From NCBI RefSeq assembly GCF_030867095.1, contig NC_081830.1, positions 37,245,832-37,309,831 of the forward strand: DNA of 64,000 bases, in the 5' to 3' direction. The notes under the pieces were generated by a model. It was not told the origin of the DNA. It worked only from the letters and a program-made list of their open reading frames with translations, and made no database searches. This DNA comes from Alligator mississippiensis. Taxonomy: Eukaryota; Chordata; Crocodylia; Alligatoridae. A program made the position numbers and the translations under genes. Of this stretch, positions 51,761 through 64,000 are shown piece after piece (within the stretch, counting starts at the first letter, position 1; the number at the start of each line of letters is the position of its first letter).

Positions 51761-52717
51761 CACTAGAGGATGCTGAGGGTAGTTTGTTGGCTTTCCCTGC
51801 CTTAAGCGATGCCTTCCCCAGCAGAGGACAAGTAAAGGTTTTGCCAGGTGAGCCCTCCCTGAGTACAGGTGGCAAAGAACTCAGGAGGTAAAACAAGCAA
51901 TGTTAGGAAGCCTCTGAGGTCTCAGGAAAAACACAGGTGTTTTCTCACACTCATCCCCTGCTCCCAGCTGTGCCACATGACGTGTTTAAGCAAACAAAGG
52001 TTCAGGTTCTCCCCATTCCCTTTCCAAAACCAGAATAAAATAAAATACCAAGATGAAGGTGTTACCATGGCAGTTTCCTGAGTAGCTCAGTCATTCTACA
52101 GAAACTGTTTTCAGGTATGAATGTAAGCATTCAAGTGGATACATCTGCAGAGCTCCAATGAGTCTAATACGTTTGTGGATGGTAAGCTGAAGGTAAGAGC
52201 AGCAAACAGTACATAGGTGGTTTTAGCTGGACTGTCAGGATAAGGGAGCTGCTGGGAGCCAGAGTGCCTGACACCAGCAACTGTGCGCCAAGGAACACCA
52301 CTGACAGCTGCTATTAATCTCTGACAGCTGCTGAACACCCAGTGACAATGAAAGAGGCAGGTACCGCTTCTGTCTCCATCCAGACCTGCTACTCCAACCT
52401 GTCCAGAATCCACATGACTGAAACATGATCCTTTCCACAACGTGTGCGCATAACAAACCATTATTTTTCCCACAGAGGGAGATTTGCTGCCATTGTCAGG
52501 TTCTCTGTCTCTTCAACTAGGTGCGATTGGAGCAGACAGTGTCCTCAAAGCCAGTTGAACCTGATGTGATTCCAGTTTGTCCCTTCTCTTGCTTAACAAC
52601 CTTTCCCACCCCAGGTGGAAATCAGCTTGTAACTTAACAGCATTATCAGCCCCAAACTCCTATTCCCGCCCAAGCCCACTAATAGATGTTGACAGCAGAG
52701 ACCCAGCTCTGCCCTCA

Positions 52718-52811
52718 TCAGTTTGTGAGAGTCTCCTCCTTTTCATCCTTGGGAGCCAACAGGCTAGATCTTGCTGGAGAACTTGTGGCTCTCTTGATCA
52801 CTTCCATCCAC
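52718..52811 (-). CDS. FARP2: FARP2 last coding exon
   Basis: Acceptor tctcttgccag. One base completes an arginine codon, then WMEVIKRATSSPARSSLLAP, KDEKEETLTN and TGA at 52720-52718. WMEVI is the closing helix of the second PH domain; the tail beyond it is short and, as I recall the human protein, differs from it. Confidence 0.92.
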
Positions 52812-55800: not shown

Positions 55801-58800
55801 GCAACCTTTAAGAATACCCTACCTAGTACATAATATTTGCATTCTGCCCTGCTTCTCCAGAATATGATTCACAAAGTCACTTGGCTTGTCTACAGGAACA
55901 AAGATTAGGCTCTCAAATCCCAACTCTGGATTAGCAGTCTGTGAATAAAACAAATGTTACACTCTGAAATGGATGTGGGGGCATGACTTTACCTTTCAAA
56001 GGTGTACTTGCTCTCAGCCCTGAAAAAGTACACATGGGATTTGAACTGCAGCTTGAAGACGTAGTCTTTCTGGATGCCATCTGCCTCCACTGGGGTGCTG
56101 ACTGTGTATCCAAGGAGTGGGAGACTGGCCAATGGATAATCATCCTGAAACACAGCCAGACAGCACAGGTCTTAGTGAAGGCCATCCTCTATGGACAGTG
56201 CAGAGTGAGAGGATGCGTTTGCCTTTTCTTACCATACTTTCAGGAATGGCTTTACTCACTTTTAGATGGACAAGAACTGCCTTTTTATCCCATGAAGTCT
56301 CTTTATATTGTAAATAATGATGAAAATTTCTCCAAGTGGCTCAATTATGGGAATAAAATGACATGTCTCTATTCTCTTGTTTTTTAGTCTCCTGAATTCC
56401 CCCCCTTTGCACTACTCCAACACTAAAGCAAAGATGATCCTCCCAGCAATGCCTGATCCTCCAGGTGAGAAGCCCTAACAATGTAAAATAAGTTTATTTT
56501 AGTTAACAAGGTCCAAAGGTGCTATTAGCCGGCTGGCAACATTCATTATAGAAAGACGGAGAGACCACTCCAGAATTACAGCAACTCCTGAGGCTTATTT
56601 CAAAATGTTAGTTGAGCGGAGATGTAAAAGGAAGGAGGGCAAACCAACTGGAATTGGGAGAAGGGAAAAGGAAAAGTAGAAACAAAAGTCTCATTAACTC
56701 TCCTGAACTTTATTAGCTGCAACACCAAGAGACACTTGTCCCTAACGCTCTACAGATCAATGCCACTTACAAAACAGGATATCCCAATTAAAGTGGTGTG
56801 AAAAAGGTTCTTAACCTTATATAAACTGGCTCCGTTAATTACTGCCTGCTATTTTTTCTTGCCACATTTGCTGCCTTCAGCGAACATGATGGGTTATTAT
56901 AAAGTGCACTTAGAGGAGAAGTTCTCCACCTTGGGAGGAAAAACCCGCAGCATGCTTATAGGCTCGGCAGTGCTACGCTGACTAGCACTTTGGATGAAAG
57001 GGACTTGGGGGTCATGACTGACCACAAGATGACCATGAGCCTTCAATGTGATGCTGCAGCTAGTAAAGTGAGCAAAATGCTGGCTTGCATCCATAGATGC
57101 TTCTCAAGCAAATCCCAGGACATCATTCTCCCATTGTACTTGGCCTTGGTGAGGCCACAGCTGGAGTACTGCGTCCAGTTTTGGGCTCCACAATTCAAAA
57201 AGGACATGGAGAAGCTTAAGAGAGTCCAGAGAAGAGCCACGCACATGATAAGAAGTCAGGAAAACAGACCTTATGATGACAGAATGAGCGCTATGGGACT
57301 CTTCAGCCTGGAAAAGCACAGGCTCAGGGGTGATTTGGTGGCCACCTATAAGTTCATCAGGGGTGCTCACCAGGATCTAGGGGAACGTTTGTTCACCAGA
57401 GCACCCCAAGTGATGACAAGGTCGAATGGTCACAAACTCCTCCGTGACCATTTCAGACCATTTCAGGCTGGACATAAGGAAGAACTTCTTTACTGTCCGA
57501 GCCCCAAGGTTTGGAATAGACTGCCATCGGAGGTGGTTCAAGCACCTATTTTGAACGCCTTCAAGAGACATTTGGATGTTTATCTTGCTGGGATCCTATG
57601 ACCTCTGCTGACTTCCTGCCCTTTGGGCAGGGGGCTGGACTTGATGATCTTCTGAGGTCCTTTCCAGCCCTCATGTCTGCGAATCTGTAAGTCTATGAAT
57701 TAAAAAGAGGTATCTCTGTCTTCCATCTAGTATCTCACCTCTAACCTTTACTGCATTGGTGCTCCCAATTCTGGCCTAGAAGGCCAGATGAATGGTGCAG
57801 GGTCAATCCATGGGCAAGATTGCACTCCACCTGGCTCCAGGGGCCCCACATTGCCTCTGCAGCTGGGGTCTAGCTCTGAGGACCCCACACCACCTCCACC
57901 CAGTCTCTATGCACCAGGAATGGGCCCTACACTGCTCAATCTAGCATGCAAAACCCGATCTAGCATGCAAGGCTATAGCCAACAGATCTGGGGGAGCCCG
58001 GAAGGCTGGATGACATGGCACCGGGGCTGGATCTAGCTCATGAGCCAGGGGTTGAGAACCCCTGCTTTAGTGCGCAGAGTTCTTACTTGACTTGTGTGGG
58101 CTTACCTGGTGAGTCTTGTAGAAGAACAAGCAAAAGTTGGTGAAGACGACCCAGAGCTTCTGCCAGCCATTGCTGTTTTTGAACTTTCTCAGCAGGTATC
58201 CTGAGAGTTGATTCTGGCATTGAGGGAAAAGAAAATGGAGGTGAGATTGCAGATCCCCATTCTCAAGAAGACAACAAAGGTTGCTGTGGTACCACTTTAT
58301 ATGCTCCTGGATCTAACAGCTAATTAACCCAGAGCTCTGTCTTGGGCTTGGACAGTCTTTCTTGGATAGTCTGTTGCCAATGAAGTGCCTCAGCCTCTTT
58401 CTGCACCTTCAGTGTGCCGCCTACACAAAGTGACTCCCTTTCACACATGCACAGCAGTAATGTACCCATGCAGGACCACCTCAGCCAAACAGGTGTCACC
58501 TCAATCATATCATTATTCTCCAGCTGTTATTGAAGAGGTCTCTAAATCTCTAATTGCATTGGTTCAAGACTTTCAACACTTCACTGAGAAGTGCATGATT
58601 TTGACCACCCTACCAGCCTTGCCTTAGCTCTGTCCTCCTTTGCAGCCTGTCTTCCAGCTGAGAACTAACAAAAACAGCTTATTAAAACACTGGTTGTTCA
58701 GTTTACGTGAAGAAGCAAATACAGGACAGCACTTGGAAAATGTAACACAAGGAGAACAAACGAAAAAGGATCCTTGACAGAGACTGAGATGCCCACTAGG

Positions 58801-61800
58801 ACATAGTAACTACACGGAGCTGAGGCAGGAGTGGACAGCACACTGCAGGGAAGCAGTATTTAAGTCAATATGCAGCAAATTGGAATGTGAGTAGCAGAAC
58901 AGGCACAGTGTGATGAGGAACAGATGTGGCTTAACCTACATGGAGAAATGACAGCAAATTAATTGCATATCTGTAGAAAGGAGACAGCCCCTTAGACAGA
59001 CTGATGGACAAGGGCTGGTTTTGGAAGAAGCACTACAGCTTTGCTCCTGAATGGGCATTCTCCAGGAGCAAGCACAACGTTGAAGGTACAGGGAGTGACT
59101 ATAGAGCAAGGGGAAGATTGTACTTGGACTCACGTGGATCCTTCTACCCCCTCAGAGTCTGAGGTGTTTTTACCTGAATCATGCACAGGTAATCAGACAG
59201 GGATAAGCTCTGGTTCCGGTACCAGCAAACATGAGTGACGGTGTTGGGCCGCTGGGCCTGGCCCAGCGAATAGCGAAGAGGAAGCTCTGGAGAGACAGCA
59301 AGAGAGCAGAAAACTGAAGAGAAAGAGAGGGAGGGAGAAAGATAACACAGCATTTTAGAATAAGAAAAAAGTGACAAAAGAAAAGCATCTGTTAAAAGAA
59401 AGGGAAATGTGAGAACAATTGCATTAGAATACACACTACAGGTCAAAGCAAAAAGTGCTGAGAGAACTCAGACTTTGTATCGCTGAACCAGTGGAATCAG
59501 GGTCACAGCATTTGGATAGCAAACAGTGATGTAGTGACTCGCACAAATTTACCTACAGGTCAGCCAGCCTCCTTCTAACGGGATACAGTTTGTCTCCCAG
59601 TTGGACAACAAACTGGTCTCCAAACCCAGATGCAAAGGCAATAAACATTTCATCAGTTAACCTATTAGTCTGGTATGCCAACTGAAAATCTAGGCACTTT
59701 ATTTTAATGCCCAGCCTTAATTACTTCCACTAAATCATTGAGAGTAGAATGCAAGGGAAGGCAGGAAGCTGCAAGTGTGAGACAGAGCACTCTTGAACAA
59801 CTGCAGTTGCTATGGAAAGCATATGCATTTCCCCCCGCCCCAGCAGCAAGGACCAACTATGCAGTCAGGATAAAGTTAGACAAGCTTTCAAATGCAAGGC
59901 GTTCTTCCTCCGATCTCCCCATTTCATGCTGCCCACTGCATATTCCTACATTTGGGAATCTAATGAGTGGTCCACCCGTGACTCCCAGCATCTGATGACG
60001 TGAACTTGGGTTCATGTAAGCTTCTTCTCTCTATATATCTCTATATCTTATTTACCTAGTATATAAAGGTGCATCTCTACCCTTCCTTCTGACTAACTTC
60101 AGTCTAAAACAGCTAACTGCCTCCCCAAGAAAGGTGGGCAGGAGAGTTCTGGCTGAACAAAGATTATTGAACTGCCTGCCTAGACAAGAGTCAAATGTAG
60201 ATGTGAAATGACAAGAGCGGTGCTCTGTGGACAGAACTCCCAGGAGAAGCCCTGCAGGTCTCCATGGTGGACTCCTGCCTTCAGTGCAGTACAAACTGAG
60301 GCAGAGTGAGTTCTGATACCCTGACACACTAGCTCGCAGGCCACAAGGCTGCATATGCAGCTTAGGACACTTATAAACAGAAAGGGAAATGACATTCTCC
60401 CGCAACAGCTCTTCTGTCATGTGTGCGAGGGGTGAGCACGACCTACAGACAGGAAGATGCAAAGGCACTCTTGAAAAAATCTGCTCATCGCTGGGACAAC
60501 AAAAGGAAGTAGAGTATCTAGAGGATACACAACTCCAGGCCTTTGTAACCCAGAGTCAGACCCTCACATAAAATAGAAACATAGAAAATTAGGGTTGGAA
60601 GTGAGCTCAGGAGATCATCTAGTCCAACTCCTTGCTCAAAGCAGGACCATCCCCAACTAGATCATCCCAGCCAAAGCTTTGTCTATCTGGGTCTTAAAAA
60701 CCTCCAAGGATGGAGATTCCACAACCTCTCTGGGTAGCCTGTTCCAGTGTTTTACTAACCTCCTAGCGAGAACGATTTTCCTAATATCTAACAAACTTCC
60801 CTTGCTGCAACTTGAGATATACCAACTGCATAGTTAGTTTCCTCTGAGGGTTGCAGAAAACACAAGTGAAGAATTCTGTCCTAGATTTCCTTTCACACAT
60901 TCCTTAAAAACACTTCCTTGAACTGGTGGAAATAGCAACACATGCGTATGGGTACACAGGCACTCATGCACCACCAGCAGACATACAAATGTGATTTGAC
61001 TTTTTAGTCGCTCGCTCTCATGGCACAGAAATGATTGAAGGCAACAAGAGACATGTACTGGAGGAAGACCAGGAACTGAATGAGCTGAGACAGACAGAGT
61101 GAGAGGTGAGAGCTGTGCCCTGTGGGGTACCTCAACAGCCACACTGTGGTCAGTCATGGAGACGCTCGTGTTGCGGTACCAGCACACGTGCATGGTAGTG
61201 TTGGCACGGTGGTGGCTCTGCCTGTCCAGCGAGCTACGAGAAGAGTGTATGTCATCTTCAGACTCTTGTTCTAGAGAGACCTCATCAGAGGATCCTGGGG
61301 GAGGAGAATTCAGCAGCAGTTTTAGAAAGCTGTGATGCACAGACAGCAATATAAGCAGGGATTCCTCTGAACATCTTCATTTTTTCCTGAACTGACCCAA
61401 CACAAGAACATGTCACCGTGCATTTGTTACACTGCTCCTGAAAGGTCTCACCTGTCACCTCTCCCTGGTCTTCAGGATCAAGCTGCATTTGGGGATGAAG
61501 GGAATGGTCTGACCCACTGCTGCATTTAAACTGAAAATGGTGTTCATGTAAAAACAGCAAGTGTATTTTGCAATGTCCTGTCCAGAGAGTGTCTTATTTG
61601 GAGACAGGCCTTTCTCACTGTGGAACAGAGAAAAATTCACTGATACAAGAAACAGCACATGCTTTATTACAGGCTGTGATAACAAAAGGCTCATGGAGAT
61701 GGGTAAGAGCAGTGGGATATAAAAGAACTTCTTCAATATCAAAGATGCCTGGGTTCTCTGGATAGAAAAAGTGCTGTGGTGTTAAATGGAGGAAAATTCT

Positions 61801-62190
61801 CCTAAACAGGAAATGGTTTAAGACTACAAAAAATTAAGTACTGTTCCAAAGCTGAGGCTTCTATCTGCAGATTTCAAAAATACCAGATAAGGTATTGATA
61901 AGATATGGAGGAGAATCCATTCTAAGTAACATGAAGAAAGGGCATTTCATTAGTGTTATTGCACCCATCATATAATCTACCATGAACATCACAGACTCCA
62001 GCAGAAAGAATGCGGGGAACATAAACAGCATCTTCGGCACCACATTCACGACGGAGGAAAATGCTACTTACTGTTAGAGCGATTGCACACGGAGCTTTCC
62101 AGGAACACATCAGAGTTCTCAGTAGATTTCTTGGCTATTTCAATGGCCATGTTTAGGTCTTCCATCCACTTCCCCATTTCCAGGCGGGTG
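52718..62190 (-). CDS. FARP2: FARP2 3' portion (FERM, RhoGEF and PH protein), partial
   Basis: Minus-strand exons in gene order are 62190-62072, 61294-61131, 59286-59174 (alternative to the previous exon), 58213-58106, 56144-55993 and 52811-52718. They encode the last helix of the first PH domain (TRLEMGKWMEDLNMAI), a Ser/Glu-rich linker, the whole second PH domain (NQLSGYLLRKFKNSNGWQKL ... ESKYTFERWMEV) and a short tail ending TLTN. The family has FERM, DH and two PH domains and acts as a Rac/Cdc42 exchange factor in plexin/semaphorin and osteoclast signalling. The upstream domains are beyond the window edge. The paralogue FARP1 is close in this region. I prefer FARP2 because the neighbour STK25 is convergent, as on human 2q37.3, and because the peptide resembles FARP2. 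All splice sites and phases are sound. Confidence 0.92.
53500..53790 (-). mobile_element. CR1 LINE 3' end in FARP2 intron
   Basis: Starts attcatagattcatagatg (tail on the - strand). The - strand frame reads ARIWNQFPREVVMAPTLGVF, the typical CR1 ORF2 terminus. Same strand as FARP2. Confidence 0.85.
54347..54538. mobile_element. Short hAT-like element in FARP2 intron
   Basis: Begins caggggctcctaatctttt and ends ctagattgggaactgctc, an imperfect inverted repeat. About 190 bases, no coding potential. The flanking duplication is only approximate. Confidence 0.5.
55993..56144 (-). CDS. FARP2: FARP2 exon: second half of PH2
   Basis: 152 bases, acceptor tgtgtttcag, donor gtaaag: DDYPLASLPLLGYTVSTPVE, then ADGIQKDYVFKLQFKSHVYF and FRAESKYTFE plus two bases (phase 2). 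These are the remaining strands of the second PH domain. Confidence 0.95.
56930..57705 (+). mobile_element. CR1 LINE 3' end with long open ORF2 remainder
   Basis: An uninterrupted frame of about 203 codons (56990-57604) covers the C-terminal part of CR1 ORF2: LDERDLGVMTDHKMTMSLQC, LVRPQLEYCVQFWAP, LKRVQRRATHMI, FSLEKHRLRGDLVATYKFIR and VWNRLPSEVVQAPILNAFKR. It is followed by a short 3' UTR and the tail gaatctgtaagtctatgaat. 5'-truncated, antisense to FARP2. Confidence 0.9.
57735..58068. mobile_element. Repeat element ending in ggggttgagaacccctg
   Basis: Contains phrases such as ggctggatgacatgg and gatctagcatgca that recur in the repeat near 15020-15385. The right end has a hAT-like ggttgagaacccctg terminus. 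Probably a non-autonomous hAT; the left edge is uncertain. Confidence 0.5.
58106..58213 (-). CDS. FARP2: FARP2 exon: first half of PH2
   Basis: 36 codons, phase 0 to 0: NQLSGYLLRKFKNSNGWQKL, then WVVFTNFCLFFYKTHQ. The acceptor is caatgccag and the donor gtaagc. These are strands 1-3 of the second PH domain, nearly identical to mammalian FARP proteins. Confidence 0.95.
59174..59286 (-). CDS. FARP2: FARP2 linker exon, form B (probable mutually exclusive alternative)
   Basis: 113 bases, acceptor ttgctgtctctccag after a long pyrimidine tract, donor cag|gtaaaa. It is open throughout. It encodes 37 whole codons, LPLRYSLGQAQRPNTVTHVC then WYRNQSLSLSDYLCMIQ, and shares NTxxHVCWYRN with the exon at 61131-61294. 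It enters in phase 1 and leaves in phase 0, exactly like form A, so it can replace form A but cannot follow it in frame. It lacks the acidic/serine half of form A. Coding status is inferred from splice sites, phase and similarity. Confidence 0.8.
60566..60835 (-). mobile_element. CR1 LINE 3' end between the two FARP2 linker exons
   Basis: Starts gaaacatagaaaattagggt and continues gatcatctagtccaactcc, the reverse complement of a CR1 3' end. It sits in the intron between 59286 and 61131. Confidence 0.8.
61131..61294 (-). CDS. FARP2: FARP2 linker exon, form A (Glu/Ser-rich + HVCWYRN)
   Basis: 164 bases, acceptor tcctcccccag, donor gag|gtaccc. Phase 1 in, phase 0 out, 54 whole codons: SSDEVSLEQESEDD, a SSRSSLDR stretch, then HRANTTMHVCWYRNTSVSM and ending HSVAVE. 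It matches the usual FARP linker that leads into NQLSG of PH2. A related alternative exon lies downstream at 59174-59286. Confidence 0.92.
62072..62190 (-). CDS. FARP2: FARP2 exon: end of PH1
   Basis: 119 bases between tgtcttttag and gtaagt, entering in phase 2 and leaving in phase 1. It encodes TRLEMGKWMEDLNMAIEIAK and continues to SSVCNRSN. The WMEDLNMAI segment is the C-terminal helix of the first PH domain. Confidence 0.92.
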
Positions 62191-64000
62191 CTAAAAGACA
62201 GACAGTGATCTTGGTTGGAACACAGCAATATTTGCCCTCAATCAAGAGGAACCCTCAGCTTGTTGCCTTCAGTATTTGCAACTCCTTTTCCTATACAGAA
62301 TCCCCACCAAAACTGTAGGTTTGTGGTGAACCCACACAGCAACAGCAGCAGCTTTCTCTTACAGGGCCCATATAACTGTGGGGGTGCTAAATTCCTGCAG
62401 TTTTCATTCTTCTTCACTCCTGCCCTTTGAAGTCAGCCTGGGCCTGCAGTGCCTGGTGGCCACACTCATTGGCCCATCCTATCCAGTAGCAATGAAATGT
62501 AAAGTTATGTACCATGTTTCTTCTGAATTTAAAACACACCAAAAGAAATACCAGTTCCCTCCTACCTGAGCTACAATGCTATTCTCAAGGGAGATGGCAT
62601 GGAAAATTTTACAGGACAAATCACTTTAAAATAAAATCAACACTTACTAACTTATCAACCTTACCACAAATGTCTCATATTCTACAGACAAGGGGGAAAC
62701 GGTGACTTCAGGTGTTACTGTGGGGTGACTGTGGGCAAAAGCTGACTTTTAATGGGTAACCACTGCTCTAAACAATTCCATATGTAGCATCTCTGAAGGT
62801 GATCTGGCCTGTCCAATAAGGAAGAGAATTACATGTTGTGGTCACTGAGAATCTGAGATATTTTGGATATATTGTAATGGTCTCCTGCAATATATTTGAC
62901 TAAAAAAAAGGAATTGAGAGAAAGAAAAAAATTGAGTTCATGATTATGCAGCAGTGCAAGGTGCCAGTTTAAGACAACAATTTAAAAAATGTACTTGATC
63001 TATAAAGAGCAGAACAAAATTGCATAGACACAGCCAAATCTTGGGATGGTATGTTAGAACTGTCAGTTCCTGTACGAAGCCACACATTTGTGCTGGAACG
63101 AAAGGACAAGGAAGACCACCATCATTCTTCATATGTGCTTTATGGCTGCTCTGGCTTTTGACCAAAAAAACAGAAAGACATTTTTTGCCTGAAGATACTA
63201 CATTAAAGAGCACCTTGGACATGGATGCGTATAATGACACTGAAAAATATGATACTGAGGCTACCTGAAGGATGGTACTCCTTTTGAAAAGAGTAGCTAG
63301 CTGAGCTTTAGCTTTCATCTTGAGCAAGTAACCCAGAATGCAGGTATAGCAAGGATTTATTTCAGAGCACATGAAAACCATTTGTAGATTATGTAGATGA
63401 TGCCATGATTACTGGGTAAGAATTCTACAGGTCACATTTGTAGAGCTAAATTTGCTAGACTGATTGCCACAACAGTTTTTCCCCTTAGAATTAGGAGAAG
63501 GCATGGCTTTCAGTTTTTTGGGGTTTTTTTAGTTCACTGTGGGTATGGCAGGGATTTGTGTAAATACTTGTTTTATTGTTTAGACACTTGTACTGGCTAT
63601 TTGGTTGCACTCTGTACAGTTTGATGGTTCTTTGTAGCCGCTTCTATTCAGTAACTCATCCCTTTCTGAAAATGTTTCCCTTCAAACTGAAAAAAAATCC
63701 ACATTTGGTTTCAGCCCAGAAGTGATTTTTTCTGGAAAGTTTAAGAAAAAATCCTTTACACTATTTCCAAGTTGTGACAGACTGGGAAAAAAAGTGTTTA
63801 CTTTTCCAATTTGAAGAATATTTCAAAGCACTTTCTGTCTCATACAATTCTGAAATAGTTACCCTTAGGGGAAAAAAGCAGACATTTTCAGGTAGACAAG
63901 AACTCAAAAACCTTTAATTCTTTTGTGAGCATGCAAAGATATAACTAACTACAAAGCCATTCAAAACTGAATTTCACGTGTATGTGTCAACAGGTTTTGC
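62191..64000 (-). other. FARP2: FARP2 intron upstream of the PH1-closing exon
   Basis: No exon with a PH1 or DH peptide is found up to the window edge. The preceding exon should end in a VVAAS-like peptide in phase 2 and is presumably beyond position 64000. AT-rich, no clear repeat. Confidence 0.6.

Follow-up and report, generated by a model that had tools for sequence, protein, structure and literature searches.

An exon pair at the 3′ end of FARP2

The stretch of DNA analysed here (the window; 64,000 nucleotides (nt) of Alligator mississippiensis, C7:37245832-37309831) carries on its minus strand the 3′ end of FARP2, the exons further 5′ falling outside it, and this part of the gene contains two similar neighbouring exons, A and B, that encode the linker between the PH1 and PH2 domains. 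In the order of transcription, and with all coordinates on the minus strand, exon U (62072..62190) encodes the end of PH1 and ends in phase 1 with the donor GTAAGT. It is followed by exon A (61131..61294, 164 nt), with an acidic, serine-rich stretch and an HVCWYRN block, and by exon B (59174..59286, 113 nt), with the peptide (K)LPLRYSLGQAQRPNTVTHVCWYRNQSLSLSDYLCMIQ. Exon D (58106..58213) begins in phase 0 and encodes the start of PH2, the next exon, X (55993..56144), also belongs to PH2 and was used in the reckoning of stop codons, and exon Z (52715..52811) is the last coding exon, counted up to the normal stop.

The assignment to FARP (FERM-RhoGEF-PH-PH) rests on the DH-PH-PH match, on the presence of PH2 after the linker and on exons that are collinear between FARP1 and FARP2. 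When the joined U, A and D peptide was used as a 131-amino-acid query, its whole length was matched by the solved FARP2 chain 4gzu and the FARP1 chain 4h6y. Genome-wide searches covered 2.35 Gb in 195 contigs; for exon D, only two matches were obtained at E values up to 1, those of FARP2 and FARP1, and no retrocopy was seen.

The original prediction had described exons A and B as a duplicated, phase-locked pair, and a recheck of the sequence found its coordinates, splice sites, phases and peptides all correct. Both exons are bounded by AG and GT and have phase 1 at entry and phase 0 at exit, and both lengths are of the form 3n+2. The end of exon A, RANTTMHVCWYRNTSVSMTDHSVAVE, and that of exon B, RPNTVTHVCWYRNQSLSLSDYLCMIQ, align without gaps over 26 codons, with 13 of 26 residues identical. 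As had been proposed, either exon alone keeps the frame, U-A-D-X-Z and U-B-D-X-Z being open to the normal stop, and the inclusion of both breaks it, U-A-B-D-X-Z stopping 268 nt before the last junction. Joint skipping (U-D-X-Z) also produces an early stop, 150 nt before that junction. A stop located farther than 50-55 nt before the last junction makes a transcript a substrate for nonsense-mediated decay and, therefore, the forms of FARP2 with both exons and with neither are predicted decay substrates.

The similarity between the two FARP2 exons exceeds chance. Exon A scored 84 against the FARP2 A-D intron, compared to a mean of 30.3 and a maximum of 47 in 600 sequences of a Markov null. As a control, exons were compared with their flanks in 20 exon pairs, two genes and two sides, with up to 3 kb in each case; these pairs were picked by eye as exons from the 38 rows of a collinear chain of frames, with exon B left out and the other 17 rows being repeats or other frames. 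Scores of at most 37 were obtained in 78 of the 80 tests, and the two higher values, 88 in FARP2 and 46 in FARP1, both came from the flank downstream of exon A; a neighbouring copy was found only at exon A among the 20 pairs checked on both sides in both genes. A short motif scan of the six U-A, A-B and B-D introns revealed no third copy of the exon core, apart from a stray VCWW in the FARP2 A-B intron; in addition, no tandem repeats were found in 58000-62400 and no Rfam match at E values up to 1 in 58000-62300. The duplicated linker exon pair of FARP2 is thus well supported by splice ends, phases and homology over 26 codons.

The matching pair in FARP1

The search for a homologue of exon B in FARP1 had been suggested as a check on the FARP2 pair, and in the same genome its outcome was positive. 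When FARP2 B was used as a genome-wide query, it matched itself, FARP2 A, two C1 sites located 2.1 kb apart and two sites with E values above 2. The C1 matches correspond to FARP1 exon A (E 0.037) and FARP1 exon B (E 0.072), and are flanked by the homologues of exons U (L007 6578-6690) and D. The remaining two sites (L005 and L006; E 2.7 and 4.8) showed stops in the surrounding frames and were taken as chance matches. In the reverse search with FARP1 B, the best non-self match in the genome was FARP2 B (E 0.058), and further weak matches were detected at L032-L034 (E 1.05 to 4.5).

FARP1 A is 164 nt long, the same as FARP2 A, and FARP1 B is 137 nt long. Both are bounded by AG and GT, occupy the same place as the FARP2 pair and share its phases (1 at entry, 0 at exit), and the FARP1 forms with both exons or with neither stop 352 and 96 nt before the last junction, respectively. 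When FARP2 B was compared with the FARP1 A-D intron, a score of 77 was obtained, with a null mean of 29.2 and a null maximum of 47 (n = 600). In parallel, the minus-strand stop-to-stop frames of at least 20 amino acids from the two fetched regions (2409 × 2172) were compared, filtered and chained by collinearity, and the resulting chain places a B-B match (E 2e-5) between the A-A and D-D matches.

Coding constraint and age of the duplication

The exons of FARP1 and FARP2 are referred to below as A1 and B1, and A2 and B2, respectively. The similarity between B1 and B2 was 77 in the frame read after exon U; the two remaining sense frames gave 33 and 30, and no antisense frame exceeded 48. This conservation of the U-B frame argues against B being a poison exon read after A. 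Moreover, 13 of 26 residues are kept between B1 and B2 despite base changes at 32 of 78 positions, with a P of 0.009 under random mutation; the same test gave a P of 0.041 for A2-B2. These comparisons indicate that exon B is very probably a real, retained coding exon.

In all four exons, 26 codons separate the core arginine from the donor. The identities over these codons are 20 for A1-A2, 13 for B1-B2, 13 for A2-B2, 12 for A1-B2, 10 for A2-B1 and 9 for A1-B1. The preferred tree on the 26 columns is ((A1,A2),(B1,B2)), and the two alternative trees gave p values in the approximately unbiased (AU) test of 0.025 (LG), 0.040 (JTT+G), 0.006 (K2P+G), and 0.005 and 0.020 (GTR). Rejection of the alternatives was stronger with 22 columns (AU p of 0.003 or lower), and the 26-column result is the one relied on here because the smaller set drops the four weakest columns. 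The signal is driven by FARP1 B, which scored 77 with FARP2 B, 44 with FARP1 A and 49 with FARP2 A. As B1 groups with B2 and A1 with A2, the exon duplication seems to predate the FARP1/FARP2 split, the tree evidence for a single old duplication being good but not overwhelming. According to the available part of PMC6041286, zebrafish carries both FARP1 and FARP2, so that the split, and hence the exon pair, would predate the divergence of fish and tetrapods.

Splicing signals around the pair

Exon B of FARP2 is preceded by a pyrimidine-rich tract (59287..59366, minus strand) with 64 C/T in 80 nt and with UCUU and CUCUCU motifs, which constitutes a candidate PTBP1 site; in FARP1, the 80 nt before exon B contain 59 pyrimidines. 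Within the fetched regions, AG-ended 80-mers as rich in pyrimidine as the B tract numbered 5 of 10861 in FARP2 and 21 of 9320 in FARP1, the same count for the exon A tracts being 744 of 10861 and 3484 of 9320. Out of 21 exon pairs, the B tract ranks first in pyrimidine content in FARP2 and second in FARP1, and the nine PTB-type motifs before FARP2 B are the most of the 21 exons. The A donors, GTACCC and GTATCT, had the lowest joint score among the 18 exon pairs with a shared GT, on a rough scale, most of the other splice sites having been positioned by an automatic procedure that was doubtful in some cases. With lengths of 1844 nt in FARP2 and 2023 nt in FARP1 and with GT-AG ends, the A-B introns do not fit exclusion of the steric or splice-site incompatibility type.

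A 21-nt element, TCTTCACTTGTRTTTTCTGCA (60852..60872, minus strand), is present in the A-B intron of FARP2 and has a counterpart in that of FARP1, with 20 of 21 positions common to both. It is located 258 nt past the A donor in FARP2 and 491 nt past it in FARP1. A pattern search of the genome (2.35 Gb) gave exactly two matches, the FARP1 and FARP2 copies, and the element is therefore not a common repeat. Its ungapped score in the A-B intron pair was 18, compared to 11.4 for the null (sd 1.0, p 9e-5), and its gapped score was 37, with a null mean of 26.3 and a null maximum of 36 of 200. The other seven of the eight intron pairs tested for common stretches gave p values of 0.011 or more, the 5′ end being only roughly set in three of the eight introns, and in one of these not at GT.

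With respect to its function, the 21-nt element was the sole dock tried for a docking (selector) RNA structure, and no RNA pairing partner was found for it at homologous places, the best partners being located at unrelated sites in the two genes. A splicing-factor site is our first guess for the element, and a transcriptional element retained in both duplicates is the second. A distant branch point is unlikely, because of the distance of the element beyond the A donor in both genes and of the AGs present between the element and exon B.

A second stretch, GTTTTTAARGAA(G)TGTGTGAAA (60891-60915, minus strand; L007 5340-5367, minus strand), is found in both A-B introns, in swapped order relative to the 21-nt element; it scored 33, with a null mean of 26.3 and a null maximum of 36, and was not counted. 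The FARP2 A-B intron also contains a repeat fragment (60521-60833, minus strand), by eye presumably a CR1-like long interspersed element, and related frames recur in the fetched FARP1 region. In the D-X intron of FARP2, a 232-codon open frame is located on the opposite strand (56903-57601, plus strand) and shows, by eye, likeness to the end of a reverse transcriptase of the non-LTR (long terminal repeat) type.

Predicted protein forms

In the B form of FARP2, the Pfam PH match starts at the third residue past the B-D junction, and thus the 26-residue block abuts PH2. The A form had been described as acidic and serine-rich, and this holds for both genes, its 28-residue front part containing 8 D/E and 9 S/T in each. 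The B form is indeed shorter than A, as also claimed, and is less acidic, with a front part of 11 residues and no acid in FARP2, and of 19 residues and three acids in FARP1. Form A is the one seen in both solved FARP chains spanning the linker, 4gzu and 4h6y.

In the autoinhibition of FARP proteins, PH2 and several other elements block the GTPase site of DH/PH1 (PMC6041286), and a role has been given to the final stretch of the sixth DH helix (PMC7005035); the linker is not named in the available parts of these two accounts. An effect of the A/B swap on autoinhibition is conceivable but somewhat doubtful, and an effect on phosphorylation is put forward as a hypothesis.

Discussion

The above results suggest that exons A and B are probably an ancient, homologous and mutually exclusive pair, of which either one or the other is included in FARP1 as well as in FARP2, exclusive use being deduced from frame arithmetic, conservation and sequence signals. 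In the mechanism that we propose, a PTBP1-like repressor acting on the 3′ splice site of B would make A the default exon. When the repressor is low, most likely in neurons, the stronger acceptor of B would beat the weak donor of A, and nonsense-mediated decay would clear the transcripts with both exons or with neither. At the protein level, the swap would retain the 26-residue block before PH2 and lose the acidic, serine-rich segment of A, which may alter how the linker and PH2 keep the DH-PH1 site closed, or may remove phosphorylation sites. As for its regulation, the tracts before exon B give PTBP1-type, mainly neural control of the pair slightly less than an even chance.

Several observations weigh against this reading, or against parts of it. 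The genome-wide E values of the FARP1 matches are weak when taken alone (0.037 for A and 0.072 for B), so that the case for FARP1 is carried by position, and FARP1 A was a better match for FARP2 B than FARP1 B was, both in the genome search and in the frame comparison. FARP2 B is equally near to FARP1 A and FARP1 B (77 each) and slightly nearer to FARP2 A (84), and the likeness of A and B within FARP1 is faint (score 44, Gumbel p 0.0025, with a highest null score of 43 among 600). The length of the A-B introns implies that there is no steric bar to the joining of A to B. One other tract of FARP1 is richer in pyrimidine than that before FARP1 B, which has two PTB-type motifs, fewer than are found at 7 of the other 20 FARP1 exons; such motifs arise easily in any pyrimidine tract, and our confidence in PTBP1-type control was reduced to the level given above because the FARP1 count is not unusual. 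Finally, the conservation of the pair has been shown within one genome, in the paralogue FARP1 only.

Other explanations account for some of these data. A regulated poison exon, which when joined to A would shift the frame and lower FARP levels through nonsense-mediated decay without producing a protein, would be consistent with the early stops of the A-B-D forms, which precede the last junction by 268 nt in FARP2 and by 352 nt in FARP1, and with A-B introns of sufficient length for splicing. However, B1 and B2 are far more alike in the post-U frame (77) than in the post-A frame (33), and B retains the 26-codon block homologous to A up to the donor; as a poison exon requires neither, this explanation is very unlikely. 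It is highly improbable that B is the relic of an old exon duplication which has lost its splicing for, although the paralogues share fewer residues in B than in A (13/26 vs. 20/26), the open frame, the phases, the splice ends and the rich tract are retained in both of them, and the constraint is exerted at the protein level (P 0.009).

The score of FARP1 B with FARP2 B (77) is far above its scores with FARP1 A (44) and FARP2 A (49), the other two trees had AU p values of 0.005-0.040 on 26 columns and the intronic element is common to both genes, all of which speaks against a later duplication of A in FARP2 only, with FARP1 B being an independent duplicate or a chance match. Such a history would account for the slightly higher score of FARP2 B with FARP2 A (84) than with FARP1 B (77), for its equal score with FARP1 A (77) and for the low likeness of A and B in FARP1 (9/26, score 44), and its estimated probability was raised because FARP2 B is equally close to FARP1 A and FARP1 B; it is nevertheless extremely unlikely. 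A less remote alternative, albeit still an improbable one, is that A and B are leaky choices, exclusive only through the decay of the remaining transcripts and devoid of tissue specificity. It agrees with the failure to find a steric or RNA-pairing mechanism, whereas regulation is suggested by the common intronic element and by the rich tract that precedes exon B in each gene.

PTBP1-repressed exons and exon pairs include c-Src N1, alpha-actinin and tropomyosin. The FARP pair resembles them in the long UCUU/CUCUCU tract before the regulated exon and in the weak competing exon, and differs in that the FARP side consists of sequence only, with few motifs in FARP1.

The human mutually exclusive exons catalogued by Hatje et al. 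(2017; PMC5740500), as described in the part of that work available, are also adjacent and similar, with equal phases and joint inclusion out of frame. The differences in length between A and B (17 amino acids in FARP2 and 9 in FARP1) are within the limit of 20 amino acids used there; in contrast to the exons of that catalogue, the FARP pair is known here from its sequence alone. In the case of OGDH exons 4a/4b (PMC7969005, available part), the likeness is that the two exons are homologous and that the intron between them contains an element which may be functional. The OGDH exons have distant branch points, located close to the donor of that intron, whereas the FARP element lies 258 or 491 nt beyond the A donor, with AGs before B. 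The term FARP is absent from the main texts of PMC5740500, PMC7954323 and PMC7969005.

In mouse, an alternative exon of Farp2 near PH1 was followed with reverse transcription PCR primers in the ASCOT study (PMC6952364, available part). By eye, the reverse primer corresponds to STRLEKE, with which exon U starts, whereas the exon before VEESENEW seemingly contains the forward primer, positions that would place the mouse alternative exon upstream of the A/B pair. In the extended FARP2 region, this further alternative exon would fall between about 68246 and 62190 (minus strand), in the PH1 part and mostly beyond the window. PMC11876696 cites the splicing of exon 20 of human FARP1 in lung cancer and PMC12294458 the retention of a Farp1 intron, the exon concerned not being identified as A or B in the available parts of either, and FARP2 is listed under AT, which we read as alternative terminator, in the part of the PMC6995393 table available. 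A description of the A/B pair was not found among the titles, abstracts and main-text passages of the open-licence papers listed, and its prior annotation somewhere is quite possible. The FARP pair would represent homologous mutually exclusive exons of unusual age, and the FARP1 copy is new relative to the original prediction.

The available part of PMC6041286 presents it as an open question whether the two FARP proteins work as guanine nucleotide exchange factors (GEFs) or are locked pseudo-GEFs. An unlikely but more far-reaching joint reading is that the switch is older than the FARP1/FARP2 split and than bony vertebrates, that it sets GEF autoinhibition by exchanging an acidic phospho-linker for a short one under PTBP1-type repression and with the participation of the 21-nt element, and that the B form is neural and easier to open, which could help to explain the inactive, pseudo-GEF-like A form in vitro. 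If a second form of the linker has indeed been retained since before the split, past structural work saw only one state of these proteins, and the A/B switch would constitute a direct test of whether they act as exchange factors or as pseudo-GEFs. It would also be an instance in which both copies of an old gene duplication have kept a homologous exon pair.
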